A DNA stretch of 32,582 bases from Candidatus Methanomethylophilaceae archaeon (GTDB lineage: Archaea > Thermoplasmatota > Thermoplasmata > Methanomassiliicoccales > Methanomethylophilaceae). The translations under genes were made by a program, and so were the position numbers. A model generated the notes under the pieces. It did no database searches, had not been told where the DNA came from, and saw nothing but the letters and a program-made list of their open reading frames with translations. Of this stretch, positions 1,425 to 25,396 are shown piece after piece; the first letter of the stretch is position 1; every line of letters starts with the position of its first letter. The DNA is taken from contig JAFYAH010000023.1 in assembly GCA_017540825.1 (NCBI GenBank), positions 1-32,582 of the forward strand, read 5' to 3'.

Positions 1425-2861
1425 TCAAGATCGGTTCTGCCTGTAGAACACCTTGGCCTTCTCGGCGAGCAGCCCTTCCTCACGCAGGTTGAACGCGTTC
1501 TTGCCGACATGCATCCTCTTCGGCATTGAGACCTTCGCCAGGTTGGCGTTGCAGAAGAACGCCCTCTCACCGATGCGCTTCACAGAGTCCGGGATGTAGA
1601 GGTCTCTGAGATCGCACATGACGAAGGCGAGGACCCCTATGTCTTCAAGGTACCTGGGAAGCTTCACAGAGGTCAGCGACCTGCAGCTTCTGAACGCGGC
1701 CTCCCTTATCCTGGTGACGGATTCGGGAAAGGCCAGGGTGTCGAAGGCGCAGTATTCGAAGGCCCCTTTGTTTATGCATGTCAAGCGGGAAGGCAGCCTC
1801 ACGGAGCTCAGACTGCAGCAGCGGGAGAAAGCGTAGTTCCCGATCTCCTCGATGCTGTCGGGAAGGCTGACCGATAGGAGGTTGCCGATTCCGCTGAAAG
1901 CGCCCTCCTTGATCTCTGCTATGGCCTTTCTGGCTCCCCCGCAGTAGGTGTATTCCGGGATGTTCAGGACCCCGCCCATGCGGCCTATCAGGGGGCTGCT
2001 CCTGCTCGCGCCCGCAGCCTCTCCGGCCATGCCCTAGATGCATATACCGCTGTAATTCTTGGACATCGAGTAATTGAAGACGCTGCCGATGTCGCACACC
2101 ATCGCGGAGTCCAGATTGCCGTTCTGAGCGGCCTTCTGGTGCCATTTCAAAGACTCCGCCTCGGAAGCCGCGACGCCGGTGCCGTCCATGTACATGACGG
2201 CGATGGCGTGCTGGGACTCCGGGTCTCCGGCCATCGCAGCCTCGCGGAACCATCTGGCCGCCTCTACGTCCGACCTGCTAAGACCCTTCCCGGAGAGGCA
2301 CATCTTCGCGACCTCCCGCTTCGATTCGACGTCGCCGAGCCTGGCGGCCTTCAGGCGCCAATCCGCCGACTTCTCTATCGAGGCCGTGATGCCGATGCCG
2401 TTCTTCGCCATGTAGGCAAGCCTGCGGTAGGAATCGACGTCCTTGTTGTTGGCAAGCTCGCGATAGTACAGCGCATCCATGCTGCTCCTGCTCTTGGCTA
2501 TGGACGAGTAGTTCTCGTAGGATATCCTGGCGGACTCGGGGCATCTCTTGAACGGGTAGTCGGACTCCTTCAGGGTGAGTATGAAGTCCGCATACCAGAT
2601 GTCTGCGTCCGCCCCGTTGAGGCCGATGATCTGCTTGACCACCCTGTGCGCCTCGGCCTCCTTCCCGGATGCCATGTGGGCCTTGGCCAGCGCCTTCAGG
2701 TTCTGTATCTGCTTTTCAAATGACGACTCCACGTGGATGTTGTTGACGTCCTTGGTGATCAGGACTCTCGAGCCGCAGTACATGCAGAATCCGAACTCGC
2801 GGCTATCATCCAGCTGGATATCTCCCGCACAGTTAGGGCATTTCAGAGAGAGCAGGGCCAT
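1425..2861 (-). CDS. Zinc-ribbon / Sel1-repeat / leucine-rich-repeat protein with one in-frame TAG
   Basis: One frame of 478 residues runs from ATG 2861 to TGA, interrupted only by TAG at 2034-2036 (codon 276). The N-terminus has a zinc ribbon (CPNC near residue 9 and CMYC near 27). A helical region follows, then Sel1-like repeats at about residues 140-260 (for example YMAKNGIGI, MYMDGTGVAA). After the TAG come BspA-type leucine-rich repeats (LPDSIEEIGNYAF, IPDSVKRIGERAF). There is no signal peptide, so a cytoplasmic scaffold or binding protein is likely. If TAG stopped translation, a second ATG three bases later (2030) could start a separate LRR protein, but only a weak AGGG precedes it. I favour a single protein with TAG decoded, because the same situation recurs in five other genes. 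The partner is unknown. Confidence 0.75.
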
Positions 2862-2878
2862 CCAGCCCAGATATCCGT

Positions 2879-2898
2879 GTCTCGTATATATTCGAGAC
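2879..2898 (-). promoter_or_regulatory. TATA box inside a 6-bp inverted repeat, Sel1/LRR gene promoter
   Basis: GTCTCG and CGAGAC (2879-2884 and 2893-2898) flank the AT-only octamer 2885-2892. The octamer lies 24-31 bases upstream of the ATG at 2861, the spacing of an archaeal TATA box on a leaderless transcript. A repressor bound to the inverted repeat would cover the TATA box; that is an inference. Confidence 0.5.
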
Positions 2899-3003
2899 GG
2901 AGTTCACGGAGCAACAAACGGATCCTCAATCAGGGCACAATTAGAGCAGGTCCTTGCCCTAATCGCTCCACCCGATTTCATAGACGGCCCGAGCCACCAG
3001 AGT

Positions 3004-4785
3004 TCAGTCCGTCTCGAACTGGTTGTCGTACAGGCTGCGATAGCGCCCTCCCAGCTCCATCAGCTCTTCGTGGGTGCCGGTCTCGACTATCCTCCCCGAC
3101 TCGACGACGAGTATCATGTCAGCGTCCCTTATGGTAGACAGCCTGTGGGCTATGACGAACGACGTGCGACCCTCCACCAGCCTGTCCATGGACTGCTGGA
3201 TCCTCGTCTCCGTGAGGGTGTCGACGGAGCTCGTCGCCTCGTCCAGTATTATCAGCTTGGACCTGCGGACCAAGGCGCGCGCGATGCTTATCTGCTGCCT
3301 CTGCCCAGTGGACAAGGACATCTTCTCGTCTATGACAGTGCCGTATCCTTCCGGCAGGGACGAGACGAAGGCGTGGAGGCCGACGGCGTCGCAGGCCTCC
3401 TCTATCTCCATGTCGGAGACGTCGGTCCTGTTGAAAGCGATGTTCTCCCGTATTGTGCCTCTGAACACCCACGTGTCCTGGAGCACCATGCTGAACATCT
3501 CCCTCACCTGACTGGTCTTCATGTCCCTGACGTCGACGCCGTCTACCAGTATGGAGCCGGAGTCGACCTCGTAGAACCTCATGAGGAGGTTGGCTATCGT
3601 CGTCTTCCCCGCTCCCGTCGGCCCAACTATCGCAACCGTCTGGCCTGGCTCGACCCTGAGGTTCATGTCGTGGATGCGCTCGGTCCCGGGCACATAGGAG
3701 AAGCGGACGCCCTTGAACTCCACCAGCCCTTTGACCTCCGGAGGCATGTCCCTCTTGCCGGACTCGTCCTCCAGCTCCTCCATGTCCAGGAACGTGAATA
3801 TCCTCTCGGCGGAGGCGACCATGCTCTGCATCCCGGATATGGTGTTGCTCAGGCGCTCCAGAGGCTGGGAGAACTCCCTGATGTAGATCAGGAACGCCAC
3901 CACCGCCCCGTAGCCTATGAAGCCGCCGAGGATCATCATGGCCCCTGCGATGCAGATAAGCGCATAGCTGAGGTTGCTGACGAACCCCATTAGCTGGGGG
4001 ATGATCTCGGAAAAGAAGCGGGAACGGAACGCGCTCATCCTGAGGCGCTCGTTGATCGTCTCGAACTTGTCGGAGTACCTCTTCTCGGCGTTGTACGCGT
4101 CGATGACGTCGGCCCCGTAGTAGGACTCCTCTACCACCCCGTTCATCGCCCCCAGGTCCTCCGCCTGCATCCTGAAGTGCTTCTGGGAGGCCTTCAGGAC
4201 CAGCGCCGTCGCTCCGAGCCCGAGGAGGACGGGAACGACGGCTACCAGAGCCAGCTCCCAGCTCATCAGCAGCATCATTGCGAAGGACCCGGAGATCATC
4301 ACGGAGGACGTCACGATGTTGTTGATGCTCTCCGCCGAGAGCCTCCGGATCTGGTCGGAATCGTTGGCGAAGCGGCTCATGACGTCGCCGATGCTCATGC
4401 GGTCCAGGATGCGCTGGGGGATGCGCTGTATCTTGCAGCTCAGGTCGATGCGGACCAGGTTGGCGTTCAGCTCGGACGACGTGGGTATGTAGAACTGCGT
4501 CACGGCGCGCAATACGGCGGAAGAGGCGTATATCAGAATGACCAGGAGCATGATCCCGGTGACGGCGCCCATGTCGATGCCCGTGCCTATCCCGTCCGAT
4601 ATGAGGTCGGTGACCTCGCTGAGATACATGGGGGCAAGCAGGACCAGAACGGACGAGGCCACTGAGGCGATGGTGCCCACGGCTATCCTCCACTTGTACG
4701 GGCTGATGTAGCAGCAGAGCCTGAAGAACGCCGGCCAGAACCTGTCGGCTTTCTTCACCCCTTCAAGACGCAGCGGTACGGCCAT
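3004..4785 (-). CDS. ABC exporter half-transporter, second subunit (consensus ATPase site)
   Basis: This is a 593-residue MsbA/multidrug-type half-transporter. An N-terminal six-helix transmembrane domain (about residues 25-320) is followed by a nucleotide-binding domain. Walker A is GPTGAGKTT, the Q-loop region reads VLQDTWVF, the signature is LSTGQRQQ, Walker B is LIILDEATSSVD with the catalytic glutamate, and the switch histidine is in IAHRLS. It starts inside the last 31 bases of the upstream transporter gene, so the two are translationally linked and almost certainly form a heterodimer. The altered signature (T for G) pairs with the partner's altered Walker B. That is the usual picture of heterodimeric exporters with one weak ATP site. 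The substrate is unknown: lipid, peptide or drug. It ends at TGA. Confidence 0.9.
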   Translation of the reverse strand: MAVPLRLEGVKKADRFWPAFFRLCCYISPYKWRIAVGTIASVASSVLVLLAPMYLSEVTDLISDGIGTGIDMGAVTGIMLLVILIYASSAVLRAVTQFYIPTSSELNANLVRIDLSCKIQRIPQRILDRMSIGDVMSRFANDSDQIRRLSAESINNIVTSSVMISGSFAMMLLMSWELALVAVVPVLLGLGATALVLKASQKHFRMQAEDLGAMNGVVEESYYGADVIDAYNAEKRYSDKFETINERLRMSAFRSRFFSEIIPQLMGFVSNLSYALICIAGAMMILGGFIGYGAVVAFLIYIREFSQPLERLSNTISGMQSMVASAERIFTFLDMEELEDESGKRDMPPEVKGLVEFKGVRFSYVPGTERIHDMNLRVEPGQTVAIVGPTGAGKTTIANLLMRFYEVDSGSILVDGVDVRDMKTSQVREMFSMVLQDTWVFRGTIRENIAFNRTDVSDMEIEEACDAVGLHAFVSSLPEGYGTVIDEKMSLSTGQRQQISIARALVRRSKLIILDEATSSVDTLTETRIQQSMDRLVEGRTSFVIAHRLSTIRDADMILVVESGRIVETGTHEELMELGGRYRSLYDNQFETD

Positions 4786-6518
4786 CGACGGGCCTCCATC
4801 TGCGTGGACACTATGCCGGCGTACTTGGGACAGGTCCTCATGAGCGTCTCGTGGTCCCCGTAGCCCGCGACCCTTCCTTCGTCCAGGACGAGTATCCTGT
4901 CGGCGCTGATTATGGACCTCACGCGCTGGCTTATGATTATCTTGGTGGTCCCCGGCATCCCTTCCCTGACGGCCGACACCAGCCTTGACTCCGTGGCCAT
5001 GTCAAGAGCGGAGAAGGAGTCGTCGAGTATCAGGATCTCCGACCTCCTGCAGAGGGCGCGGGCGATGGAGAGCCTCTGCCGCTGGCCTCCGGACAGCTCC
5101 CTCCCGTGCTGGGATATCACTGTGTCCAGACCTTCAGGCATGGCTCTGACGAAATCGGCGGCCTGGGCGTCCTCCAGAGCCTTCCACACGTCCTCGTCGG
5201 TGCGCTGGTCCTCGGTATCACCGAAGTTGACGTTCTCGCGGACGGTCCCGGAGAACAGCTTGGCCTCCTGCGGAACGTAGGCCATGCGAGACTTCAGCAT
5301 GGAACGTGGATAATCCGAGACGGCGACCCCGCCGATCTCTATGCTGCCGCCGTCGGCGTCGTAGCTCCTCTGGAGAAGCTTCGCGACGGTGCTCTTCCCG
5401 CAGCCGGTCTGGCCTATGATGCCCAGGGTGCTCCCCGGCTCCACGCAGAAAGAGACCTCGGACAGCGCGTCCCTGGTGGTCCCCGGGTATCTGAACGAGA
5501 CGTTCTCGAACTGCACCCGAGGACTCCCGGCGGACGGAACAGATGAGACGTAGGCGATGGACGGCTCGAACCCGAGGACCTCCTCGACGCGCCTCACGCT
5601 GACGATGACCCTCGGGTAGTCCCGGATGAAGTCTGCTATCATGACGAAGGCGTTCAGGACCTGGAGCCCGTAAGACGAGAAGGCGATCATGTCCGAGAAC
5701 AGGACCATCTGCTCGCCTGCTCCCGAAGCGGAGGAGATCAGGACAGCCCCTATCCAGTATATCGAGGCGGTGAGGAAGTTGGACACGACGGACGGGAGCA
5801 TGAATAGTGGGAAGCGGACGTGGAACAGGCCCATGTAGTTGTCCAGCATATCGTTCGAGGCCTTCTCGAACTTCTGGCACTGGAACTCCTCCGCGTTGTA
5901 GGCGCGGACGACCTTGGACCCCAGGACGCTCTCCCTGGTCTCGCTGTTCAGGGAGTCCGTGAGCTTCTGCGCCCTGTCGAAGTACTTTATGCTGAGATAG
6001 GTGATGAGCGAGATGGCGGCGACGAGGAAGATGACGCATCCGGCCGTGGCGACGGTCCATTGCCATCCTCCTCCAGAAATCTTGGCGATGGCCCATACGG
6101 AGAGTATAGGCGCTTTGATGACCGTCTGGAGCGCAGTGCTGACGAAGACCTGGACTTCCTTTATGTCACCGGTAGTGCGCGTGATGAGGGAGGCGACGGT
6201 CAGGGTGGCGATGTCATCGGCGGACAGACCTTGGGACTTGGAGTAGATCTCGTGCCGGAGGGTGCGCCCGAACGACGCCGCGATGAACGCTATTATCGTC
6301 CCAGCCGAAAGCGAGGCGACGAGGCTGAGAAGGGCGCAGACTATCATCCCGACCCCGTCCCTAGATATGGCGTCCAGCGTAGTGCCTGTCTGCAGGGCGT
6401 AGGTCATGCTCTGCATGTACTCCGGGATCTTCAGGTCGAAGAATATCTGGGCCACTATGAGGGCGACCACCGGGATTATCAGGAGGCGGTCGCGCCTGCT
6501 CATGTATTTCGTTATCAT
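4755..6518 (-). CDS. ABC exporter half-transporter, first subunit (degenerate ATPase site)
   Basis: A 587-residue ABC exporter half-transporter: transmembrane domain over about residues 10-300, nucleotide-binding domain after about 335. Walker A is GQTGCGKST, the signature is the canonical LSGGQRQR, and Walker B reads LILDDSFSALD, with aspartate where the catalytic glutamate normally sits. The switch position is glutamine (IISQRV) instead of histidine. These two changes mark the non-consensus subunit of a heterodimer such as those of the TM287/288 or LmrCD type. It is the first gene of the pair and overlaps the second by 31 bases. The ATG at 6518 follows an AT-rich divergent gap shared with the remnant at 6643. 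The substrate cannot be read from the sequence. Confidence 0.9.
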   Translation of the reverse strand: MITKYMSRRDRLLIIPVVALIVAQIFFDLKIPEYMQSMTYALQTGTTLDAISRDGVGMIVCALLSLVASLSAGTIIAFIAASFGRTLRHEIYSKSQGLSADDIATLTVASLITRTTGDIKEVQVFVSTALQTVIKAPILSVWAIAKISGGGWQWTVATAGCVIFLVAAISLITYLSIKYFDRAQKLTDSLNSETRESVLGSKVVRAYNAEEFQCQKFEKASNDMLDNYMGLFHVRFPLFMLPSVVSNFLTASIYWIGAVLISSASGAGEQMVLFSDMIAFSSYGLQVLNAFVMIADFIRDYPRVIVSVRRVEEVLGFEPSIAYVSSVPSAGSPRVQFENVSFRYPGTTRDALSEVSFCVEPGSTLGIIGQTGCGKSTVAKLLQRSYDADGGSIEIGGVAVSDYPRSMLKSRMAYVPQEAKLFSGTVRENVNFGDTEDQRTDEDVWKALEDAQAADFVRAMPEGLDTVISQHGRELSGGQRQRLSIARALCRRSEILILDDSFSALDMATESRLVSAVREGMPGTTKIIISQRVRSIISADRILVLDEGRVAGYGDHETLMRTCPKYAGIVSTQMEARRWPYRCVLKG

Positions 6519-6584
6519 CCGAACGCCGCCGTCTCATCAAATGTGTATTGGCATTATCAGCTTACTGCTATATGTATTATTATT

Positions 6585-6596
6585 TTTTTATAATCG
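6585..6596 (+). promoter_or_regulatory. TATA-like element upstream of the ABC fusion remnant
   Basis: The 124-base gap between divergent genes at 6519-6642 is very AT-rich. TTTTTTATAA at about 6585-6594 lies roughly 50 bases before the ATG at 6643, consistent with a promoter plus a short leader. It may simply be the preserved promoter of the lost importer copy. Confidence 0.3.
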
Positions 6597-6642
6597 TATG
6601 TTTAAAGTAATATTAGCATAGATTTAGTAATACTACACCGCG

Positions 6643-7377
6643 ATGAACAAGAACGCCATCACCACCGCAGTTGTCGCGGTCGTAGCAATAGCCGCCGTGG
6701 CCGCGTTCCTTCTCCTCGGAAACGGGGACAAGAACTACAACGGCGGGAACGGAGACAAGCCCGTAATGGACGGGAAGTCCTCATGGTCGAAGTCACAGTG
6801 CCCGTATGCGGACACCAACGCCGACGAGAAGGTCGCATCTGACGACGTCTCCCTGGAGAAGAGGTTCCTCAACGGCGAGAGGACGTCCATGTCCTACAAC
6901 AACTCATACCACGAGGCGATGAGGGCGGAGTACGACGCCATGGAGCTCGTGCGGATGGAGGACCTCGGGAACAAGAGGTTCAACGAGCTCTCGGCCGTCC
7001 ATCACCAGAAGGTGGCCATCGTCAGGGGGATCGTCCAGAGGCCCCGCGTACTGTTGCTGGACGATCTAACCGCCAACCTCGACGTGAGGTACCAGGTCTA
7101 CGTCACTGAGATCCTGAGGGCTCTGGCCGAGACCGAGGAGACGATCGTCGTAATGATCAGCCACGACCTGAACATCTCCGCCAAGTACGCCCACAGCATC
7201 ATCATGATGGGAGAGCCCGGAAGATCTTCAAGGTGGGCCCTCCTGCCGAGGTGCTCAAGAAGGAGAACATCGAGAAGGTGCACAGGACCCGATGCGACGT
7301 CATCCGCTACGAGAGGTCCGGAGCGCGAATCGTAGTGCTCGGATGGCGATATCGGCAGCGACGGGAGGATGAACTGA
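6643..7377 (+). pseudogene. Deletion fusion of a metal-chelate binding protein and its ABC ATPase
   Basis: The first about 85 residues match the start of the binding protein at 19285: a MNKN signal anchor, then a dockerin-like calcium loop (DTNADEKVASDD) and a FLNGE motif. The frame then passes directly into the second half of an ATPase like the one at 21888 (FNELSAVHHQKVAI, LLLDDLTANLD, MISHDLNISAKYAH). The C-terminal half of the binding protein, the whole permease and the Walker A half of the ATPase are missing, so an internal deletion of a second copy of the operon is the simplest explanation. The ABC signature is damaged (LSAVH for LSAGQ), and Walker B has aspartate for glutamate. Around 7216 a one-base loss shifts the frame; the ATPase tail resumes in another frame (VGPPAEVLKKENIEKVH). 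It cannot work as a transporter. Confidence 0.85.
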
Positions 7378-7384
7378 ACCTGAG

Positions 7385-7417
7385 GGCCGGGCGGAGGGAC
7401 GATCGTGAAGCCCGGCC
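7385..7417 (+). terminator. GC-rich hairpin between convergent units
   Basis: GGCCGGGC (7385-7392) pairs perfectly with GCCCGGCC (7410-7417) across a 17-base loop and is followed by a T-containing stretch. It lies between the end of the fusion remnant and the convergent MATE gene. The position suits a terminator for either strand, although archaeal termination depends mostly on T-runs, which are short here. Confidence 0.4.
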
Positions 7418-7457
7418 GATTTGCTTTCCAGGGAGCGTTCTCCAGCCGACAGGAATC

Positions 7458-8822
7458 TTATATTGACGCCCCCTGGCTCGCCTTCGAACGGTATTCCCGC
7501 ATGACGACGTACAGCACCAGGAGCACCACGGACATCATGATCAGGTTCACCGCATCCAGAGACCAATAGATGGCCCCCATGGACGCTCTCGACGCGAACC
7601 AGAAGAACAGTATGAACATCAGCTCCCTGCCGAACATTATCGCCGTGGACATCACGGCTTTGCGCATCGCCTGCAGCATGGATGTGCCGAGCTTCATCAC
7701 TCCGTTCAGTACCGGGACGACGGAGTATATGCGCAACGCAAAGGCCATCTCGTCGTGCAGCGGAGCCATGGCTTCGGAATAGGTGTACAGGGAGACGAGC
7801 TGGTCGGCGAACAGGAACAGCACCGCGCCGAAGGCTATGCCCGCTCCCAGGACGAGCTTCATGGAGTACCTCAACGACTCCGAGACCTTTTCCGGAGCTT
7901 TCTGGCCGAGCTGAGCCGAGACCACTGGGATCAGCGCGGACATGAGTGCCATGGAGGGGATCGTGGCCAGGTCCACGAAGCTGAACGAATTGACGTAGAC
8001 CACCAGCCCCTCCGCTCCGCCGCAGGACGCCACGAGCCCCTGCTCGGGCGCGATGACCAGGCAGGAGAGGATGGATTCCAGCGCCACGGGGACGGTCATG
8101 ACCGTCATGTCCCTGAGAAGCGCAGGCTCGAAGCGGAACCCTCTGACAGAAGGGGAGACGTACATGCTCCCGCGGGCGTAGAGCGACAGTCCGACGACGG
8201 TGGTTATCATGTAGGAGATGCACGTGGCCCACGCCGCCCCGGTTATTCCCATGTCCAGCCCGTATATCATCGCCGGGTCCAGAGCCATGTTGATGACCGA
8301 AGCGGACGCCGACACCACCATGGACTTCCTGGCCGCCCCTTCGGCGCGCATGAGGCCCACGACGAGGCCGTTGAACACCAGCGGGACCGAGCATAGGATG
8401 TACGGCAGGACGTAGTCCATGGCGAGCCCCTCGTTGTGCCCCGCTCCCGACATCGAGATTATCGGTCCTGACGCGAGCAGCATCGCCGGGATGGCCGCTA
8501 CGGCCGCAACCAGGGCGACCGCCAGCGCCTGGGAGGCTGTCCTGTCGGCGGACCGCTTGTCGCCTGCGCCGATGTAACGGGCGATGGATGCGGAAGCCCC
8601 AACCCCTATGGCTATACCGAGGGACACTATGATGCGGAACGCCGGGGCGGATATCGATATCGCCGAGAGCGGGTCTGGGCCGAGCCCGGAGCACCATATC
8701 CCGTCTATGAACGACTGCAGCCTGGATATGAGGTACGTGACGAACAGCGGGACGGCCATATGCAGCATGGCCCTCTTCGGGTCGCTGAGAAGCGCCTCCA
8801 CGTCTTCGCCTTTTCCGGTCAT
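7458..8822 (-). CDS. MATE-family multidrug/Na+ antiporter
   Basis: A 454-residue polytopic membrane protein with about 12 hydrophobic segments in two related halves, the MATE fold. The N-terminal half has the typical AVPLFVTYLISRLQSFIDGIW and ASASIARYIGAGD elements, and the second half repeats the pattern (TVPVALESILS; IPVVSAQLGQ). It should export cationic compounds in exchange for Na+ or H+. I chose ATG 8822, not the in-frame ATG at 8849, because 8822 overlaps the TGA of the TfoX-domain gene by four bases (ATGA), a normal operon junction. It is the last gene of a leftward cluster with the E1-like and TfoX-domain genes. It ends at TAA. Confidence 0.88.
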   Translation of the reverse strand: MTGKGEDVEALLSDPKRAMLHMAVPLFVTYLISRLQSFIDGIWCSGLGPDPLSAISISAPAFRIIVSLGIAIGVGASASIARYIGAGDKRSADRTASQALAVALVAAVAAIPAMLLASGPIISMSGAGHNEGLAMDYVLPYILCSVPLVFNGLVVGLMRAEGAARKSMVVSASASVINMALDPAMIYGLDMGITGAAWATCISYMITTVVGLSLYARGSMYVSPSVRGFRFEPALLRDMTVMTVPVALESILSCLVIAPEQGLVASCGGAEGLVVYVNSFSFVDLATIPSMALMSALIPVVSAQLGQKAPEKVSESLRYSMKLVLGAGIAFGAVLFLFADQLVSLYTYSEAMAPLHDEMAFALRIYSVVPVLNGVMKLGTSMLQAMRKAVMSTAIMFGRELMFILFFWFASRASMGAIYWSLDAVNLIMMSVVLLVLYVVMREYRSKASQGASI

Positions 8823-9214
8823 CCGTACTCGGCTGGCGTAATCGTGCATGCATCATAATTGTTTGCTGAACCTCCGAGAGCAAGAGGCGAGCAGGTCCTT
8901 CGACTCTTGCGGGCAGAGCGCCTGCTGGCGACAATCTCCTCGCACATCGCGTCCACAGCCCTCCGGAGAAGCGCGGCGTCGTACGGCTCGGGGAACAGGA
9001 TCATCTCTCCGCCACCCTCGTATGGGAACGCGGAAGGGCAGTCCGCCAGGATCGTCGAGGAGGCCTTGGTGATCTTCAGCAGGAGCCTGTCGTCGTAGAT
9101 CCCGCCGAACAGGATCCCGTCCTTGTACAGCAGGTACTCTCCCATCATCCTGCGCCAAGCTATCCCCGGAAGGGCTTCCCTCACGGATGCCAGCGCAGCG
9201 GCGTCTGACGGCAT
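8819..9214 (-). CDS. TfoX N-terminal-domain protein
   Basis: A 131-residue protein with the TfoX N-terminal fold: RRMMGEYLLYKDG followed by FGGIYDDRLLLKIT and a phenylalanine/proline-rich end (FPYEGGGEMILF). Family members are small, and their role outside competence regulation in gamma-proteobacteria is not established. A GGGAGG ribosome-binding site lies about 7 bases before the ATG, which fixes the start. The last about 30 residues (after RRSARKSRRT) are not part of the domain. Its stop overlaps the MATE start by four bases. Oddly, the frame of the upstream E1-like gene stays open through all of this gene; the TfoX reading is the convincing one here. Confidence 0.8.
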   Translation of the reverse strand: MPSDAAALASVREALPGIAWRRMMGEYLLYKDGILFGGIYDDRLLLKITKASSTILADCPSAFPYEGGGEMILFPEPYDAALLRRAVDAMCEEIVASRRSARKSRRTCSPLALGGSANNYDACTITPAEYG

Positions 9215-10391: not shown

Positions 10392-10495
10392 GATAGCGCC
10401 CTCTGGTCTCGCCGGACGGGGTTCGGCACCGTGCTCCCGCTCCGACTCGTCTGGCAGGTCATCCTGGGTACATGTAGCTGGCGGCATCCGTCGGT

Positions 10496-16062: not shown

Positions 16063-16093
16063 CCTGCAAAGCAGGCTCCTCTTTCGATTCGCT

Positions 16094-16240: not shown

Positions 16241-16378
16241 TCCACGCACGGAACGTCGCTGGCGAGAGCCGAAAGTCGTTCATGTCAGCCTGCTGGGAAG
16301 GCCAGGCTGCTGGATCAATTCCCGGATGCCAGCAATACCTTAATAACCTGGCTGTCTGCATAGCACTCAGTGATCTAC

Positions 16379-17020
16379 ATGAACAACAAGATCATTCTGG
16401 TCGTCGCCGTTGTGGCCATCGCGGCCGTTGCCGTGGCAGCGCTCGCGCTCACCCAGAACACCAGCAACAACGCCGACAAGGAATACGTTACGTACTACGG
16501 GAACGGAGGCTCCCTCGGGGAAACCGACAGCTTCAAGTCTCTCGAGACTACCGCCAAGGAATGCGACTTCAAGAACGGCTCCAAGGCGTTCCTGTCGTGG
16601 AACACGAAATCGGACGGCACCGGCAAGAAGTACATGGCCGGCGACTACGTCGCGTTGGGCACCAAGCTCTACGCCCAGTGGTCCCAGAACTCGCTGACCG
16701 TGGAGAACCCCTCCTTCATCCTGTCGCCGCTGATGGGCCTGAAGCTGTACTACACGGACGACTCCCATACGATGGAGGCGGCCGACCTCGTAATCCCGCT
16801 GAAGTCCAGCGGCACCATAAAGCTCTTCCTCGGAAAATGGGGCGAAGTGGAATGGGATGCCGAGAAGTCCATGTTCTCCGGGAAGACCACCACCGGGATG
16901 AACACCACGCAGAAGGTGTCCGTCACCGGAGGGAGCGCGACGTTCTCTGTCGAGGACGGATACGGGGTGATCGCGATATCCTATACGGGAAGCGTCACCG
17001 TCGACTTCTCCAACTTGTGA
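16379..17020 (+). CDS. Membrane-anchored surface protein with an InlB B-repeat
   Basis: A 213-residue secreted protein. ATG 16379 gives MNNK followed by a hydrophobic segment rich in VAVVAIAAVA, nearly the same anchor as in the metal-chelate binding protein at 19285 and its dead copy at 6643. Residues about 36-95 form an InlB B-repeat/Listeria-Bacteroides repeat (YYGNGGSL, FLSWNTKSDGTGKKYMAGD, LYAQW). The remaining about 115 residues look like a beta-sandwich with no motif I know. No lipobox cysteine or clear cleavage site is present, so it may stay anchored by its N-terminus. A GTG nine bases upstream is a less likely start. CTTAATAA at about 16340 suits a TATA box. Adhesion or surface display is the usual assignment of such repeats. 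It ends at TGA. Confidence 0.75.
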   Translation: MNNKIILVVAVVAIAAVAVAALALTQNTSNNADKEYVTYYGNGGSLGETDSFKSLETTAKECDFKNGSKAFLSWNTKSDGTGKKYMAGDYVALGTKLYAQWSQNSLTVENPSFILSPLMGLKLYYTDDSHTMEAADLVIPLKSSGTIKLFLGKWGEVEWDAEKSMFSGKTTTGMNTTQKVSVTGGSATFSVEDGYGVIAISYTGSVTVDFSNL

Positions 17021-17087
17021 CAACCTTTTCCTGGCGGGATCCGGCGGGCGCTCCGCCCGTCCTGCCCTCTTCTTCTACAATACCGAT

Positions 17088-18893
17088 TCAGGGAAGGGCG
17101 CCCCCTTCGCCGATCGCCCCTCGAACATGCCCCATCTGTCGGAACAGCTTCTTGAGCCTGCCCAGGACCCCGCCGCCTTCTTCCTTCGGCATGTCGGACA
17201 GCACGGTCACCTTCGTATTCGGATAGAACGCGCTGTTGTGGATCCTGGTCTGCGGGTACACGTAGGCGTTGTTTAGGAAGTTGCAGCGGAATGCCCATAC
17301 CCCTACCGAGACGACGGACATGGGGATGCGCACGTTCTTGAGACCCGCGCGATAGAACGCCCTCGTGCAGATCGCCCTCGTTGTGCCGGGAATCTGCACC
17401 TCCTTCAAAGACAAGCATTCCTCGAAGGCGCTGGCCCCGATGCTGACCAGCGACCTCCCCAGGTTTATCTGGTTCAGCCGGATGCAGTAATAGAAGGCCA
17501 TATCACCGATGAATGTCGTGTCCGGCGATAGCTCCACGCTGCGGAGCTCGCTGCAGTCCCTGAACGTCTCGTTCATCACCAGCCTCACAGAGGGCGGTAT
17601 CGAGATGCTCCTGAGCTTATCGCATCCGAGGAAGGCTTCCTTGCCCAGATGCTTGAGGCCGGCGGGGAGGCGCACGCTTTCGAATCTGGAGCCACGAAAA
17701 GCCCCGTTCTCTATGTATTCGACGCTGTCCGGAAGCACCTAATGCCTCTCGGAATAGCGGAAGGCATCTTCCCCTATGCTGACTACCTTTCCCCTGAACA
17801 GAAGCGAACTGATGAATCCCGAAGCGAAGGCTCTCCTGGGGATGCGGGTTATCTTGGAAGGCACCTCAAGATGCTGCGTCTTGCAGTTCATGAACGCCTC
17901 CTCCCCGAGACGTTCCAAGGACTCGGGAAGGTCTATGGAGCCTATCTCCGCGTCCTAGAACGCCCCCAGCCCTATGGTCTTGAGCCCCTTCGGCAGGATC
18001 ATCTTGCCGATCTTGGCTCTGCAGAACGCATAGTCGGCTATGGTCTCGACCGTGTCCGGGACGCAGTAGACGCCCTCTTCCATGAGCTGCGGATACTTGA
18101 TGAGCGTCTTCCTGCCCTTGTCGAACAGAACGCCTCTCAGAGAGCAGTAATGCTCGTTGCCGCTCCCCACCTCTATCTTGCGAAGGTCGTTCAGGACGAG
18201 CGCATGCGCGTCAATGAACCTCACCGAATCTGGTATCCTGATCTCGCAGAGCTCTTTTACTCCGAAGAACGCCCTGAACCCTATGTGCTCGAGCCCCTCC
18301 GGAAGGACGATGCTGTGGATCTCGGCCCCCTCGAAGGCGCGGTCCTCGATGGCCTTCACCCCGCCAGGAAGGGACAGATTCCAGAACTTGAACCCCGAGA
18401 ACCACCTTTCTGGTACCACGGTGACCCTCTCCGGGATCGCCATGGGCTTGCGCGCATCGTATGAGTTCTTCAGCGCCCATATCGACCGGTCCCTTTCGCC
18501 CGGAGCAGACGCGGGAGGCGCCGAGGAATGGACTGCCTAGCTGTGGTCGCTCACACGGAAAGGGCACCATTTCTTCGGAGGCCTCTCTGGCAAGAAGCCC
18601 TCCTCCTTGAGCCTCTCGACGAGCATCGCCGTATGCTCCTCCGTGACCCCCCTCTTGGATATCCAGCCCGGAAGATTGCTGGCAATCCCCTCAGGGTCCC
18701 ATCCGTCCACAACCTCGGAGCGCAGAATCATCTCGATGCAGTCCATGTCGACCTGCGAGAACCCGAGCTCCTTCATGCGCTCCAGCACGGCATCCGCATC
18801 GCTTTCGAACAGCCTGGCGGAAGGGCCTCTCTTGTCCTCCCCGGGGCGTTCGGCCACAGGCTTCTTCCTGTCTCCCAGCGGCGTCTGGTCCAT
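17088..18893 (-). CDS. BspA-type leucine-rich-repeat protein with three in-frame TAG codons
   Basis: A single 601-residue frame from ATG 18893 to TGA 17088-17090, broken only by TAG at 18537-18539 (codon 119), 17955-17957 (codon 313) and 17739-17741 (codon 385). Residues 1-118 form a helical domain of unknown function (FESDADAVLERMKELGF; WDPEGIASNLPGWISK). An Ala/Pro/Ser linker follows the first TAG. From about residue 150 there are BspA leucine-rich repeats. The second TAG falls directly after an AF motif (IGLGAF-TAG-DAEIGSIDLP) and the third just before LPDSVEYIENGAF. In both cases the repeat register continues across the codon without any gap. Separate genes cannot explain this, as the pieces are fragments of one solenoid. 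No signal peptide is seen. A TATA box lies 21-27 bases upstream of the start. Confidence 0.85.
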
Positions 18894-18913
18894 GCGACGT
18901 AATCGTCGGCCGG

Positions 18914-18920
18914 ATATTTA
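18914..18920 (-). promoter_or_regulatory. TATA box of the three-TAG LRR gene
   Basis: On the minus strand TAAATAT (18920-18914) lies 21-27 bases before the ATG at 18893, indicating a leaderless or nearly leaderless transcript. This supports the ATG as the true start of the long frame. Confidence 0.45.
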
Positions 18921-19192
18921 GTTCGATGACGTAATACATCCAGTTCTGTGCAGTGCATGCCTATGTCGCACTCCATTGAAGGAGCACTCGGCCGCCGACA
19001 TTTCTGTCTGACGCGCCTCCGACGCTTCCGGACCTATGATGAACCTTTCAGATATCTTGGTAGGAGGGCCCTTTCGGTACAGAACCCGGCCTCGGGATGC
19101 GACCAGCCGATGCCGGGCTTTCGCATGATGGATCGTCGCTCTCGCCTCGCAAAGATGGAGAGGTTTTTCCAGCAACCTTTAACACTTAAGTC
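18921..19192. other. Intergenic stretch without a convincing gene
   Basis: The 391-base gap between the LRR gene and the binding-protein gene contains only short frames with poor composition and no ribosome-binding sites. A CCCGGC...GCCGGG inverted repeat at about 19087-19117 could form a hairpin. No tRNA cloverleaf or known RNA was recognised. The right part, from about 19160, becomes AT-rich and belongs to the promoter of the importer operon. Confidence 0.4.
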
Positions 19193-19200
19193 TTATATTA
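19193..19200 (+). promoter_or_regulatory. Likely TATA box of the metal-chelate importer operon
   Basis: TTATATTA lies in a strongly AT-rich block (19180-19260). From here a leader of about 60 bases would carry the palindrome at 19254-19274 just before the AGGTG ribosome-binding site and the TTG start at 19285. Other AT-rich hexamers in the same block could serve instead. Confidence 0.35.
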
Positions 19201-19253
19201 CCAATACATCCAATTTAACATACAAATTATTATTACTCATTAAATAAATTGAT

Positions 19254-19274
19254 TTATGGATTAAACATCCATAA
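19254..19274 (+). promoter_or_regulatory. 8-bp perfect palindrome next to the ribosome-binding site of the importer operon
   Basis: TTATGGAT (19254-19261) and ATCCATAA (19267-19274) are exact inverted repeats with a 5-base spacer. The right arm touches the AGGTG ribosome-binding site (19274-19278). It could be a repressor operator or a leader hairpin. The TTATGG half-site also appears in the feoAB operator region (14915-14920), hinting at a shared metal-responsive regulator; that link is speculative. Confidence 0.45.
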
Positions 19275-19284
19275 GGTGCTTAAG

Positions 19285-20673
19285 TTGAACAGTAAGACAG
19301 CAATAGCTATAGTGGCTGTAATCGCAGTGGCGATCGTCGCCATCGCGGCCACGCTCATACTGACCTCCAACAACGGGAGCGACAACAAGCCGAGCGGGAG
19401 CGACTACAGCGACTTCAACGTCCAGACCACCAGGAACCTGGTGTTCGGCAACGCCAACAACGACAACTACCTGGACCAGAAGGACGTGGACTACATACAG
19501 TCCATCGTGGACAAGAAGACGACGTGGGACAACGTCAAGTACCCGCTGGCCGACACGGACGCGAACGGGGTCGTGGACTCCAAGGACGTCGCTCTGCTCA
19601 AGAAGTTCCTGAACGGGGAGAAGGCCACCATGCACTACATGAACTGGTACAAGGACAAGGCCAGCATCAACTACCCCGTCAAAGGCCCCGTCTCCGTCGA
19701 CTACACGACGGCGTACGACATGTTCGTCATCCTCGGCGCCTTCGACCAGGTCGTCGGGACCAGGGACGCCGACAACCTCATCGCCAACTACAACGAGACC
19801 CTCTACCCCAAGGCCAGGAGCCAGATCCACAGCATCAGGAACGACGCGGGCAACATGGACCCCGAGAAGATGTTCGCCCTCGGGACCAAGCTCGTCGTCG
19901 GCGATCCCTACGACGCGACCGACGAGGTCGAAAAGGCCATGAAGGCCATGGATCCCGAGGTCAACGTCCTCAAGCTCCCCGTGAACAGGGTCATGAACGG
20001 AATAGACTACACCCACACCATAATCACGCTCGGGGTCATGATGAACAGGCAGGCCAACACCGCGAAGTACATCGACTTCGTGGAAAGCATCGAGTCCGAG
20101 ATCAAGTCCAGCATAACCGACTCCGGAGCCGCGACCAAGACGATGCTACTGTGCTACAACCCGTCCAGCCCCAACTCGATCAGCCTGGACTGCCTGAGCA
20201 CGTTCGTCATGCAGTACACCGATGTTACCAATGCGCTCAGGCTCCCCTTCGAGATGCCCGTGGAGCGCGTCGCGAGGGAGATGGGAGGCATGTACACCAA
20301 CCTCGAGATGGCGAAGATCATGGAGATCAACCCCGAGGTCATCATCATAGACACCTACAACCTCGCCGGTGCAGACATCAGCGCCAGCGAGTACTAGAGC
20401 ATCGTCAGGGAGAAGGTCGAGTACTTCAAGGAGACCAACGCCTACAAGAACAACAAGATCGTGACCATCGCCTTCGAGGTCATCGGCGGCACCGCAGGCA
20501 TATCCTGCCTCCCGCTCATCGGTTCTTTCGTGTGGGGCGAGAAGGTCTTCGACAAGGCCCAGGCCTGGGACTACATCAACAACTATTACCGCAGCTTCAC
20601 CAACATGGGGAAGAACGTCGACATGACCAAGATCAGGGGATACGCTCCCGAGCTGTGGGGAGCCACCGTCTGA
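19285..20673 (+). CDS. Dockerin-bearing metal-chelate ABC substrate-binding protein with one in-frame TAG
   Basis: A 462-residue extracellular binding protein for the permease and ATPase downstream, probably for an iron siderophore, heme or cobalamin. The TTG at 19285 has AGGTG 6 bases upstream and yields MNSK plus a hydrophobic anchor, matching the MNKN start of the dead copy at 6643; a TTG at 19249 is less likely. Residues about 55-115 hold two dockerin-type calcium loops (NANNDNYLDQKD and DTDANGVVDSKD). The periplasmic-binding fold follows (VDYTTAYDMFVILGAFDQVVG; PEVIIIDTY). TAG at 20395-20397 (codon 371) lies in the second lobe. The same frame continues for 91 codons with sequence proper to the family (YAPELWGATV) to TGA. 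Stopping at TAG would remove part of the C-terminal lobe. No frameshift or other stop is present. Confidence 0.88.
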
Positions 20674-20683
20674 TCGGAAATCA

Positions 20684-20730
20684 GGAGGGCGCTGCCGACC
20701 GGATCCGGACGCCCTCCGACCTTCGGAGGT
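20684..20730 (+). promoter_or_regulatory. Two mutually exclusive hairpins around the permease ribosome-binding site
   Basis: GGAGGGCG (20684-20691) pairs perfectly with CGCCCTCC (20710-20717); its loop contains the palindrome CCGGATCCGG. CCTCCGA (20713-20719) pairs perfectly with TCGGAGG (20723-20729), hiding the GGAGG that serves the permease ATG at 20735. The two stems share bases 20713-20717, so only one can form at a time. This could tune permease translation or reduce readthrough from the highly expressed binding-protein gene. Structure and role are inferred from base pairing alone. Confidence 0.4.
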
Positions 20731-20734
20731 CTAG

Positions 20735-21883
20735 ATGAGATACTACGATGACACCGAGCAGGATCCGCTCCTCGGGAACCTTGTCAAGGACTCCATCAAG
20801 AGCTGGGTCAAGGGGACCTCCGCAGAGGACGTCGGCTTCGGCAGAACCGTGAAGGAATACCGCAGGATTATAAGGTTCAGGTACGTCTTCATCGCCGTCT
20901 GCATAGTGGTCATATTCGCCATCGCCGGCTACTCGGTCACCCTCGGGCCGTACGGCATATCCCTGAAGGAGGCGTACGAGATAATCTGGTCGCACCTGAC
21001 CTTCGGGCATTATTCCGACACGGCCAAGGATTACATCGTATGGCAGACCAGGATACCCCGCGTCGCCTTCGCCGTGTTCGGAGGGGCGGCGCTGTCAGTT
21101 GCCGGAGCGGTGATGCAGAGCATCCTGAAGAACCCCCTCGCCGACTCGTACACGACCGGAGTGTCTTCCGGAGCCGGCTTCGGAGCCACGCTGGCGATGT
21201 CCACCGGGATGGTCGTGGGGAGCATGACGGGAGTGGTCTCGTTCGCTTTCGTCTTCTCCATAATACCGACCGCGGTGATAATCGCCATATCCAAGCTGTC
21301 CAACGCATCGCCCACCACGATGATCATGGCCGGGATAGGCGTGATGTACGTGTTCAGCGCAGGCACCACGGTGCTGATGCTGTGGTCGGACCCCCAGGCC
21401 ATGTCGGCGATATACGCCTGGCAGGTCGGGTCGCTGTCCAACTACAACGTAGTCTTCGACAACATACCGATTATACTCGTCGTATCTGTAGTGGGAACCG
21501 TGTTCATGTGCCTTATGGCCGGGAGGATCAACGTGCTGGCCACCGGGGACGAGAGCGCGAAGGCCCTGGGCATAGACGCGGACAAGCTTCGCATCATCCT
21601 CCTGCTCGTGACCGGCCTGCTCGCGGCGGCGATAGTGAGCTTCGTGGGGATAGTCGGGTTCGTGGGGCTGGTGAGCCCGCACATAGTGCGCATATTCATC
21701 GGAGCCGACAACAGGTACCTGATCCCGGCGTCGGCCATCTTCGGCGGGATGCTGATGCTCGTCGCCGACCAGATAGGGAGGGTCGCGCTGTCCACGCCGC
21801 TTCCCGTCGGAGTGGTCATGGCGTTCATCGGAGGACCGATCTTCCTCTGGCTGATCCTCAGGAGAGGGAAGAACGTGTGGTGA
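20735..21883 (+). CDS. FecCD-family metal-chelate ABC transporter permease
   Basis: A 382-residue membrane protein of the FecCD/BtuC type, with about ten hydrophobic segments after a about 45-residue cytoplasmic N-terminus. Family landmarks are RIPRVAFAVFGGAALSVAGAVMQ, the NPLADSYTTGVSSGAGFGA element, LATGDESAKALGID (the loop that contacts the ATPase) and GFVGLVSPHIVRIFIGADNR. It passes an iron-siderophore, heme or cobalamin substrate through the membrane. GGAGGT lies four bases before the ATG but can be hidden in a hairpin. It follows the binding protein by 61 bases and precedes the ATPase by 4 bases, so the three genes form one operon. It ends at TGA. Confidence 0.92.
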   Translation: MRYYDDTEQDPLLGNLVKDSIKSWVKGTSAEDVGFGRTVKEYRRIIRFRYVFIAVCIVVIFAIAGYSVTLGPYGISLKEAYEIIWSHLTFGHYSDTAKDYIVWQTRIPRVAFAVFGGAALSVAGAVMQSILKNPLADSYTTGVSSGAGFGATLAMSTGMVVGSMTGVVSFAFVFSIIPTAVIIAISKLSNASPTTMIMAGIGVMYVFSAGTTVLMLWSDPQAMSAIYAWQVGSLSNYNVVFDNIPIILVVSVVGTVFMCLMAGRINVLATGDESAKALGIDADKLRIILLLVTGLLAAAIVSFVGIVGFVGLVSPHIVRIFIGADNRYLIPASAIFGGMLMLVADQIGRVALSTPLPVGVVMAFIGGPIFLWLILRRGKNVW

Positions 21884-21887
21884 TCCG

Positions 21888-22718
21888 ATGACGGTTATCG
21901 AGCTCAAGGAAGTCACGTTCGGCTATTCCGAGAAGAGGCCGGTCCTCAGGGACATAAACCTGAGGATAGACGAGCCAGGGTTCTACTGCATAGTCGGGCC
22001 CAACGGAGTCGGGAAGTCCACCATTGTGAAGTGCCTTAACAAGATCCTCCTGCCGCAGAAGGGGACCATATCCATAGACGGGGAGGACATCAGCGGGATG
22101 GACTACAGGAGCCTGTCCAAGAAGATAGGGTACGTGCCCGTCTTCTCACAGGACGCGTTCTCCATGAGCGTGGTGGACACCATCATGGTCGGGCGCTTCA
22201 ACCATTCCAAGACCCATAGCCTGGAGGAGAACCTGATGAAGGTCTACGACGCCATGAAGCTCCTTCACATCGAGGGGCTGGCGTACAAGAAATTCAACGA
22301 GCTCTCCGCTGGACAGCACCAGAAGGTCGCCATCGCCAGAGGCCTGGTGCAGGAGACCCCGGTGCTGATCCTGGACGAGCCCACGGCCAATCTGGACGTG
22401 AAGTACCAGGTGTACGTCATGGAGATGCTGAGGGCCATATCGGAGGAGTGCGGCACCATAGTGCTCACCATCAGCCACGACCTCAACATCACCGCCAAGT
22501 ACGCCCACAAGGTGATAATGCTCTCCAAGCCGGGGATCATACGCGCCGTCGGCACGCCCGAGGAGATCTTCACCGACGAGAACATAAAGGCCGTCTACGG
22601 CGTAGACTGCTGGGTGGAGAAGTCCTCCAAAGGGGTGTCCGACGAAGGGCAGGACGCGGGGATAAGCATACCCCACATAACCCTCGGCGAGGCTCTGTCC
22701 GTGGACGAGGACGAATGA
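21888..22718 (+). CDS. FepC/BtuD-type metal-chelate ABC transporter ATPase
   Basis: A 276-residue ATPase energising the FecCD permease. Walker A is GPNGVGKST, the Q-loop is VFSQDAF, the signature is LSAGQHQKVAIARGL, Walker B is LILDEPTANLD, and the switch histidine is in TISHD. All catalytic residues are present, unlike those of the truncated relative at 6643, which matches this protein from about residue 113 onward (VYDAMKLLHIEG; FNELSAGQHQKVAI). The C-terminal about 40 residues extend beyond the domain and end in an acidic tail (SVDEDE). It starts four bases after the permease stop. It ends at TGA, and a T-rich stretch (TTCTTTTATAAA, about 22766-22777) downstream may end transcription. Confidence 0.92.
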   Translation: MTVIELKEVTFGYSEKRPVLRDINLRIDEPGFYCIVGPNGVGKSTIVKCLNKILLPQKGTISIDGEDISGMDYRSLSKKIGYVPVFSQDAFSMSVVDTIMVGRFNHSKTHSLEENLMKVYDAMKLLHIEGLAYKKFNELSAGQHQKVAIARGLVQETPVLILDEPTANLDVKYQVYVMEMLRAISEECGTIVLTISHDLNITAKYAHKVIMLSKPGIIRAVGTPEEIFTDENIKAVYGVDCWVEKSSKGVSDEGQDAGISIPHITLGEALSVDEDE

Positions 22719-22954
22719 AAACCGATTCGGGACGTTCCAGGCTGGGAGCGCCCCGTTCTTTTATAAACCCTCGATTTCCTCCGGGCGTCTAGCTACCATC
22801 GTCGAGACTCGCCGAGACGCTGATCGACCTTGCTTGACTCGAAGAGCATCTCTGGAGCATAGCCGTTCTGGATGGCATCGAACTGCTCGCGGAAGCATCT
22901 CGTTAGCAGACCGCAGATCGCGTCGCTCATTTGGAGTGATGGCCATCCTCCGAC
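22719..22954. other. Gap between the importer operon and the RNase III-like gene
   Basis: It holds the T-rich end of the importer operon at about 22766-22777. On the minus strand a 45-codon frame runs from ATG 22930 (MSDAICGLLTRCF) to a TAG at 22793-22795. It starts 25 bases after the RNase III-like gene stops and has a plausible helical composition but no close ribosome-binding site. I cannot tell a small gene, or a remnant of a larger one, from chance. Confidence 0.3.
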
Positions 22955-23461
22955 TCATGAGAGGCCTTTCAGTCTGTCACTCTCGTTCACGAGCCTCATC
23001 CACATCTGCACAACCGCTTCGGCCTCCGTTATGCTCTACTCGTGGTCAAGAAAGAATGCGCCCAAGCAGGCTTCCATCGCTGTGGCGACATACTTTTGTT
23101 TCCTGTCGGTTTTGCTTTTTCCAGAAGGGTTCCAAGAGTAGTCTATTCTCTTTTCATCATCCTCATGATACTTTAATATCTTCAGGATGTCGTAATGTTT
23201 AGCAATGACGGTGACTAGTGTTTTATCAGATTCGTATCTTTGACGTTCTTTGGAAATCATTTTTGTATCCTGGGAATACAGAATCAAAGATGCTGCCAAA
23301 CGCAAAACAGCATCTCCCACAGTAGCAAGTTTAGAGTTGTCCTCCAGATGATGCTGATTCGTATACCTGCGATAAGAGCTGTCGGTAAGAGCCAGCGTCA
23401 GCTATTTCGAATCGGACTGGAGGTATTTCAAAAAAGGATCATATTCGGGAGCGTCTTCCAT
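22955..23461 (-). CDS. RNase III-fold protein with two in-frame TAG codons
   Basis: Reading TAG through at 23402-23404 (codon 20) and 23036-23038 (codon 142) gives one clean 168-residue frame from ATG 23461 to TGA 22955-22957. It has the RNase III layout: LTLALTDSSYRRY, then LEDNSKLATVGDAVLRL, and near the end YVATAMEACLGAFFLD followed by a helix (TEAEAVVQMWMRLVN). Of the four RNase III metal ligands, the aspartate of GDAV and the glutamate of MEACLG are kept. The first glutamate (LEFLGD in RNase III, LATVGD here) and the ADxxE aspartate are replaced. Mini-III enzymes also have a LAYxGDAV form, so activity is not excluded. There is no double-stranded-RNA-binding domain. A TATA-like element lies 22-31 bases upstream of the ATG. 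Codons are AT-richer than those of neighbouring genes, suggesting later acquisition. Confidence 0.75.
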
Positions 23462-23482
23462 AGATCTCTAAACTACAGAAGA

Positions 23483-23492
23483 GAATTAATTT
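23483..23492 (-). promoter_or_regulatory. TATA-like element of the RNase III-like gene
   Basis: On the minus strand AAATTAATTC lies 22-31 bases before the ATG at 23461, the spacing expected for a leaderless archaeal transcript. It supports that ATG, rather than the internal GTG at 23320, as the start. Confidence 0.4.
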
Positions 23493-23624
23493 CATTCTGT
23501 GACGAATTGAACAGATGCGTGATGTGTCAGCGACTTTCTTCTGGATGGATTCAAGAAGTCGATCGCTGTCGGACTTTGAAAGAGGGTTATGCGAACCAAA
23601 GGCGCCGATGCTCCGTCTCGCCGT

Positions 23625-23631
23625 GTTTATT
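23625..23631 (+). promoter_or_regulatory. TATA box of the serpin gene
   Basis: GTTTATT lies 24-30 bases before the ATG at 23655 and so argues for a leaderless transcript beginning at that codon. An earlier in-frame ATG at 23589 would put the TATA box inside the gene. Confidence 0.45.
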
Positions 23632-23654
23632 ACCGCGAATCAGGATTCCGTCTC

Positions 23655-24830
23655 ATGGAATTAATCGACAGCCGTGTGTCGTCCGGCGTCAACGCCTTCG
23701 CATGGGATTTCTTCGACGCCGCCGGAGAAGAGAACATGGTGTTCTCGCCGTTCGGCATCTATTCGGCCCTGGCCATACTGGCCAACGGCGCCGAGCCCGG
23801 ATCCGCGGCCGAGGAGGAGCTCAGGCGCTTCCTCCGCTTCGATAGCTAGCGCTCGCTGAACAAGCTCGTCAGAAGCATAGCGGACGGATCGTTCGGAGGC
23901 GCCGAGTTCAAGTCGCGCTGCCTTCTCCTGCTGGACTCCGGGCACGTCAAGGAGCACAAGGTGCATGAAGGGTTCGAGAGGGCCGTGGACGAGTTCTACG
24001 GAGGAGGGGTGTCAGAGGCGGACTTCCCCCATCGTCTGGAGGATGTCAAGAGGCTGGTGAAGGAATGGGTGAGGGAACAGACCGACGGTATGATTCCGGA
24101 CTATGAGTCCGCGGCCACGGAGGACGCGGTCGCCGACATCCTGAACGTCGTGTGCTTCAAGGGAAGCTGGACGTCCCCGTTCGACCCCTCGGACACGGAG
24201 ATCGAGGACTTCCGCAACGCCGACGGCACCGTGTCGGAAGCGGAGATGATGAGCGGGACCTTCAGCGAGCCCATGTACTACGATGACGGGAAGCATAGGG
24301 GCCTGGCGCTGACCTACGGGGACGCGAGCTCGGACCTGCGCTTGAACCTCGTCCTCCCCTCCGACCCGGGCTGTCTTGACGTCCTGGGGTCCTGGAGGTC
24401 CGAGACCGCCGAGTACCGCGAGAGGTTCCTGCGCTCGATCGCGATAACGCCCGATTTCGTGGAGGAGGCAGTCGTTCTTCTCCCTCGGATAGACCTGTCG
24501 GCGACATTCGACCTCGCGGACGCGGCCAGGCGCATGGGCATGACCTCGACGTTCGGAGAGCCGAGCTTCTCGCGCATCCTGGACGGGTTCCCGCTCATGG
24601 TCCAGGGCGGCAAGCACCAGGCCCGGATGCTTATCGACGAGGAGGGGACCGAGGCCGCAGCGGTCACAGAGTTGGTCTTGATAGAAGGCTGCCCGATGGA
24701 TTACAAGCCTCCCATGCGTTTCATCTGCGACAGGCCGTTCGTATTCGTCCTGTCCAGCAACGGGGAGGCGCTGTTCGTGGGGTACGTCGGCAACGCCGAG
24801 GAGCTGTCTCCGGCTAAGAAAGGCGCATGA
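23655..24830 (+). CDS. Serpin (serine protease inhibitor) with one in-frame TAG
   Basis: A 391-residue serpin, the usual length of the family. NMVFSPFGIYSALAILANGA near the start is the conserved helix B region. LNVVCFKGSWTSPFD is the strand that follows helix F. The hinge EEGTEAAAVTE has the small residues required in inhibitory serpins. DRPFVFVLSSNGEALFVGYVGN is the C-terminal signature. The P1 region lies within ELVLIEGCPMDYK. TAG at 23847-23849 (codon 65) falls after helix C (RRFLRFDS), and the same frame continues at once with RSLNKLVRSIADG. Stopping there would leave a useless fragment. No signal peptide is evident, so an intracellular role is possible, or export by an unknown route to protect against host or neighbour proteases. 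The ATG was chosen because a TATA box sits 24-30 bases upstream. It ends at TGA. Confidence 0.87.
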
Positions 24831-24853
24831 CGAGGAGTCGCGGGCGGCCTTTT

Positions 24854-25396
24854 TCAGACCGGCTCTCGCCTCGCCCCTGATGTCAGGTAGACCCTGCCAT
24901 CGTCGGTATGCATGACCCTCTCTGACGGCTTCCCGCGACGGCCCTTGGATTCTGGGATTCTGCGGAACCCTATGTCCTCAGGACGCACTGCGGTATCGGG
25001 ATCGAAGGCGCCAGCAGACCTGAGAGCGTCCTCCGCCAGCGCTCCCTCGAGGACGGAGATGTCCGTTTCCGGTCCGAAGCTGACCGCGAGAGCCAGCAGC
25101 CTCATTATCCGGCCAGCGTCGTATTCGTTGCCGGATATCGACGTGGTCGTCCCTCCGAAACAGGCGACGCGGCGGATCTCCCTCTCGTCGAAGGCGTTGC
25201 GGACGGCAGCGCAGACGGCGTCCCCCTCCGACAGGATGGTGGTCGGGTCGTAGGGATGCGAGCCTATCGTCTAGTCCATGGAGCCGTCCATGAGGTGCAG
25301 CCTCCCGTCGATGTCCTCGAGGAACAGGTCGCCTTCCACGTGAAGGACGATGGCGTCCCCCGGCTTCCTCGCGCTGTCCTCCTGCATCGCCGGCAT
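24854..25396 (-). CDS. Unrecognised 180-residue protein with one in-frame TAG
   Basis: A frame from ATG 25396 to TGA 24854-24856 is broken only by TAG at 25271-25273 (codon 42). The part before TAG (GDAIVLHVEGDLFLEDIDGRL) looks like a beta-rich start. The part after it has CFGGTTTSISGNEYD and a helix (AGRIMRLLALAVSF) and ends in a basic segment (SKGRRGKPSERV). I recognise no family. Codon 4 is also ATG (25387) and suits the TATA-like element ATTATATC (25412-25419) better. The gene diverges from the HerA-like ATPase, with 113 bases between them, and converges on the serpin. Composition on both sides of the TAG is that of real coding sequence, and no other stop occurs in the frame. Confidence 0.65.

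Follow-up and report, generated by a model that had tools for sequence, protein, structure and literature searches.

The window, by which we mean the whole stretch of 32,582 nucleotides analyzed, carries nine in-frame TAG codons distributed over six genes when its open reading frames are read with TAG as sense. These genes, along with two downstream transporter genes and a PHP-domain gene that bears on the reading of TAG, are listed below.

1425..2861 (-): Sel1-repeat and BspA-type LRR_5 protein, 478 aa; TAG at codon 276 (2034-2036)
17088..18893 (-): BspA-type LRR_5 protein, 601 aa; TAG at codons 119, 313, and 385 (18537-18539, 17955-17957, and 17739-17741)
19249..20673 (+): ABC transporter substrate-binding protein (Peripla_BP_2), 474 aa; TAG at codon 383 (20395-20397)
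20735-21883, then 21888-22718: FecCD permease, then ATPase, downstream of the Peripla_BP_2 gene
22955..23461 (-): RNase III-domain orphan, 168 aa; TAG at codons 20 and 142 (23402-23404 and 23036-23038)
23589..24830 (+): serpin, 413 aa; TAG at codon 87 (23847-23849)
24854..25396 (-): family A protein, function unassigned, 180 aa; TAG at codon 42 (25271-25273)
29611..30327 (-): PHP-domain gene with an apparent TAG end (29611-29613); the TAG-sense frame continues to a TGA at 29362

All six TAG-bearing genes, which hold one, three, one, two, one, and one TAG in the order listed, terminate at TGA, and none contains an internal TAA, TGA, or frameshift. This exact recount agrees in every respect with the sequence-only reading of the window that preceded our analysis. 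That reading had also put the chance of nine TAGs out of nine at about 1 in 20,000; the outcome is indeed improbable, but the figure itself did not hold, as the stop-trinucleotide composition of the window (420 TAG, 234 TAA, and 937 TGA over both strands) gives a rarer p = 6e-6. With TAG translated as sense, the proposed check on domain content came out in favor of five of the six genes, in which the TAGs lie inside or beside Pfam domains (Sel1 plus LRR_5, LRR_5, Peripla_BP_2, Ribonuclease_3, and Serpin). When codon usage was scanned with a model for which the pyl operon served as seed, five of the six genes kept a coding signal both before and after their TAGs, and the signal was weak in the RNase III-like gene, for which homologs were found in none of the 60 relatives searched. 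At the serpin TAG, relative G018 encodes Arg. Elsewhere in the window, positions 6643-7335 hold a likely pseudogene in which the beginning of a dockerin-like ABC binding protein is fused to an ABC ATPase fragment; it may be what a deletion left of a second operon copy resembling that at 19249-22718.

The genome (2.37 Mb in 73 contigs, 95.6% complete) encodes a full pylTSBCD set, the genes whose presence the sequence-only reading had named as a check on amber decoding. On contig C68, tRNA-Pyl with a CTA anticodon, PylS, PylB, PylC, and PylD are clustered, with PylS scoring 255 bits, above its cut-off of 178, and PylB, PylC, and PylD likewise exceeding theirs. PylS is of the 273-aa type that lacks an N-terminal domain. 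The cluster is neighbored by a gene encoding a corrinoid protein and by an MtmB gene (PF05369, 759 bits) whose in-frame TAG falls in the GVOGP motif, in a column common to this genome and four others. The relatives of PylS at 92-93% identity belong to MAGs classified as Methanomethylophilaceae or 'Thermoplasmata', one of them from sheep omasum, and this identity and source make it most likely that the organism is a Methanomassiliicoccales archaeon of the rumen. In one of the genomes compared (G014), pylB (L095:6604-7671(+)) has a TAG as its apparent end, and 24 more codons follow before the next stop. The archaeal release factor aRF1 is encoded in a single copy with its NIKS and YRCDSxF motifs intact, and a motif comparison with relatives revealed no change peculiar to pyl genomes. 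Judging from these motifs, aRF1 should still be able to terminate at UAG and, because they are intact, TAG decoding likely arises by competition with the factor, not from its having lost the ability to recognize UAG. Competition between Pyl-tRNA and the release factor is also the accepted view (PMC9499178).

The use of TAG as a terminator was determined in sampled stretches, ~380 kb from this genome and 1.66 Mb from the eight genomes that were grouped as pyl-bearing. A count of terminal TAG against TGA and TAA had been suggested beforehand, and TAG proved rare: homology-anchored gene ends in this genome comprised 134 TGA, 15 TAA, and a single TAG (1/150). Across the eight genomes, 4/666 homology-anchored ends were TAG versus 5/95 in two members of the family that lack PylS, a depletion of about ninefold (Fisher p = 0.002). 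PylS was found in seven of the eight genomes in the pyl-bearing group, the exception being an 82% complete assembly (G006) that contributed three of the 666 ends, none of them TAG. At least one of the four TAG ends is doubtful (G018 L235, itself a multi-TAG gene), and among the few genes that still seem to end in TAG, L070:3614-4405(-) has a TGA eight codons on. In the window, the sequence-only reading had flagged the end of the PHP-domain gene as an ambiguous TAG terminator. The TAG is there, but it lies some 18 codons past a lost stop: the G018 protein ends GFKKM-TGA, while the matching codon here is CGA. Since the ancestral TGA was lost, this TAG is not an inherited terminator.

Within the 1.66 Mb of the pyl-bearing group, 31 in-frame TAG and three in-frame TAA codons were spanned on either side by homologs encoded in other genomes, and homolog-spanned in-frame TAG was absent from 0.34 Mb of pyl-lacking relatives. 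The same comparison returned 36 TGA sites, an uncurated set that we read mostly as junctions of neighboring genes in the same frame or wrong-frame calls; because same-frame neighbors dominate the in-frame TGA counts, TAA was taken as the main control. By coding score, about 14 of 310 sampled genes in this genome contain an internal TAG, five of the 14 in the TAG-rich window. The expectation that TAG would be decoded in many ordinary proteins was thus supported, for core genes too, with an extent of a few percent of genes. Among the core genes was replication protein A (L061:11547-13550(-), ~667 aa), whose in-frame TAG occurs in no relative; this gene is the single match in the genome, and its product is 79% identical to that of a relative with Lys at the TAG site. 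Similarly, the UMP kinase of a sister species, G001 (L248:7743-8471(+)), contains an in-frame TAG where this genome encodes Glu, and it is the only full UMP kinase match in G001. TAG was also found in relatives' genes encoding ThiF, MarR, and ABC ATPase proteins. The residue encoded by relatives at most of the TAG sites is K, Q, E, S, D, or R.

Positions of TAG were also compared between species. MtmB, MtbB, and MttB served as positive controls, and in these the TAG position was common between genomes. Two more families had TAG columns common to this genome and G018 only. The tandem winged-helix proteins L079:6148-8004(-) and L235:9393-10838(-), 44% identical to each other, share two TAG sites and have several unshared ones, and TAG is absent from 27 more remote relatives within the order; the L079 frame continues here into a stretch resembling peptidyl-tRNA hydrolase. 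A small two-repeat protein (L075:12279-12794(-) and L231:6397-6912(+)) has a TAG in repeat 2 in both species, with Phe or Tyr at the corresponding position of repeat 1. Apparently conserved TAG columns between L071 and G014 L087, and between G018 L132 and G009 L227, were set aside, since the frames look to be upstream or antisense ones.

Outside the methyltransferases, a conserved TAG was also found in family A (24854-25396). Homologs of this protein were detected in five other species of the genus (6/147 genomes of the order searched, counting this one), a patchy distribution within one genus, and all six species carry TAG in the same column, with 51-58% identity to the copy in the window. 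The motif around it reads LHLM[DN]G.[MT]D-TAG-.I.S.P. Changes concentrate at third codon positions both before and after the TAG, and because this excess persists past the TAG, the downstream part of the gene is evidently translated. TAG is one of just 10 codons, out of 168, that do not vary among the six species. At fourfold degenerate sites, the third base is invariant in all six in 3/34 columns, so the chance of an unconstrained TAG surviving in all six would be (3/34)^3, or about 7e-4, a rough figure that assumes three independent free positions. One of the six copies (G006, L226:4928-5416(+)) carries the TAG in the 82% complete assembly in which PylS was not found.

Searches of family A returned no Pfam or NCBIfam match above cut-off and no match among viral contigs, phages, plasmids, PDB sequences or folds, or BFVD. 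In a phylum-wide sample, a match to G198 (E 0.004, 16 bits, 59 positions) was at chance level and was rejected. An AlphaFold2 model, built from the six sequences with Lys in place of Pyl, predicted a small alpha/beta fold (mean pLDDT 84) that has no PDB match at E <= 0.001, and put codon 42 close to where a confidently predicted beta strand begins. There was no synteny, with neighbors differing in every genome. No convincing conserved RNA structure was detected after the TAG in the six sequences, so a PYLIS-type element is unsupported.

Since TAG is kept in six of six species, selection probably acts on the family A TAG, whether for pyrrolysine or for a switch that depends on Pyl. We give about even odds to family A being a functional Pyl protein outside the methylamine methyltransferases, with a new fold, in which the residue or the readthrough is required, be it for catalysis or for sensing Pyl supply. 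A narrower version, in which the TAG is kept purely as a sensor such that the protein is completed only when pyrrolysine, and with it the methylamine pathway, is available, would fit both the retention of TAG in all six species while silent sites were scrambled and its place toward the 5' end of the gene, at codon 42 of 180. We regard it as possible though on the unlikely side, as a structural or catalytic residue would fit equally well at the start of a strand in a compact predicted fold.

Given the pyl cluster, the near-absence of TAG ends, and the presence of homolog-spanned TAGs in core genes, we conclude with a probability of roughly 0.9 that TAG is an ordinary sense codon in this organism, most likely decoded as pyrrolysine by Pyl-tRNA outcompeting aRF1. 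The sequence-only proposal that TAG is a routine sense codon is therefore supported. We infer from sequence both the identity of the inserted residue, pyrrolysine, and the efficiency of its insertion in competition with aRF1. Under this scheme, PylB, PylC, and PylD would make pyrrolysine and PylS would charge tRNA-Pyl(CUA) with it, most likely constitutively. Pyl-tRNA would then beat the single aRF1 at UAG, making UAG a 62nd sense codon, and gene termination would be left to UGA or UAA as TAG terminators were purged. Because TAG would be tolerated, and because relatives carry K, Q, E, S, or D at such sites, sense codons may have drifted neutrally into TAG, with a minority of sites kept. Most TAG sites do look neutral.

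Several other explanations were weighed. The TAG-bearing genes of the window belong to the accessory gene set (LRR, serpin, and orphans), the neighboring remnant at 6643-7335 really looks like a pseudogene, and the assembly is fragmented into 73 contigs, all of which would suit six pseudogenes or decaying genes whose TAGs are true nonsense mutations. Such decay is very hard to reconcile with nine stops out of nine being TAG (p = 6e-6) with no TAA, TGA, or frameshift, with a family A that is conserved on both sides of its TAG in six species, and with TAG in replication protein A and in the UMP kinase of a sister species, and we consider it highly improbable. Equally so is the insertion of an ordinary amino acid by another amber-decoding tRNA, with pyrrolysine confined to methyltransferases. 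Our scan for CTA anticodons covered only part of the tRNAs of this genome, and relatives often have Lys, Gln, or Glu at TAG sites, as such a tRNA might predict. However, tRNA-Pyl(CTA), PylS, and PylBCD are present and sufficient, and the codons for these three residues are one step from TAG, so that mutation alone explains their occurrence.

An ambiguous TAG that mostly terminates, with partial readthrough, possibly regulated by methylamines, being sufficient for the affected proteins, deserves more weight than either of these and is nevertheless unlikely. It would be in keeping with the intact aRF1 motifs, with the accepted competition between Pyl-tRNA and release factor (PMC9499178), and with the few apparent TAG ends that persist. 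Yet those ends are about ninefold fewer than in pyl-lacking relatives, full-length LRR and RNase III-like proteins would each call for two or three readthroughs, and TAG is present in core genes. Decoding of TAG as an ordinary sense codon, most likely for pyrrolysine, thus remains our preferred reading.

The general phenomenon is already published for the order Methanomassiliicoccales (PMC4153887, PMC5011839), and what is new here is family A. In 'Candidatus Methanomethylophilus alvus', TAG accounts for 1.6% of stops and in-frame TAG was predicted in 16 proteins other than methyltransferases (Borrel et al. 2014, PMC4153887). That archaeon belongs to the same order and resembles the present one in its pyl cluster, its low use of TAG as a stop, and the occurrence of TAG in ordinary proteins. 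Unlike that list, which was a homology-based prediction from one genome (PMC4153887), our data include ~14/310 sampled genes, several with two or three TAGs, and some TAG positions that are conserved between species. ISO4-H5, another ruminal member of the Methanomassiliicoccales with many amber genes, has 46 genes with in-frame TAG, including those for adenylate kinase, Cas3, adhesin-like, and hypothetical proteins, and a cross-species test of TAG positions, as made here, is not described in the parts of that report available to us (PMC5011839). The TAG of family A is position-conserved, as are those of MtmB, MtbB, and MttB that are held under selection, but family A has no detected sequence similarity or TIM-barrel fold similarity to these enzymes. 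No description of a position-conserved Pyl family outside the methyltransferases was found in the open-licence literature. An archaeal 'Pyl code', in which certain archaea consistently use TAG as Pyl, has reportedly been backed by proteomics in work by Kivenson and colleagues in Science in 2025.

These data add a genus of rumen methanogens to the archaea in which TAG is a working sense codon, and standard annotation of their genomes would truncate TAG-bearing genes or label them pseudogenes. The comparison between species suggests that most TAG sites are neutral and that a few are held. Family A makes it testable whether pyrrolysine has essential roles beyond the methylamine methyltransferases, and the conservation of its TAG hints at a real job for this residue outside methylamine enzymes.
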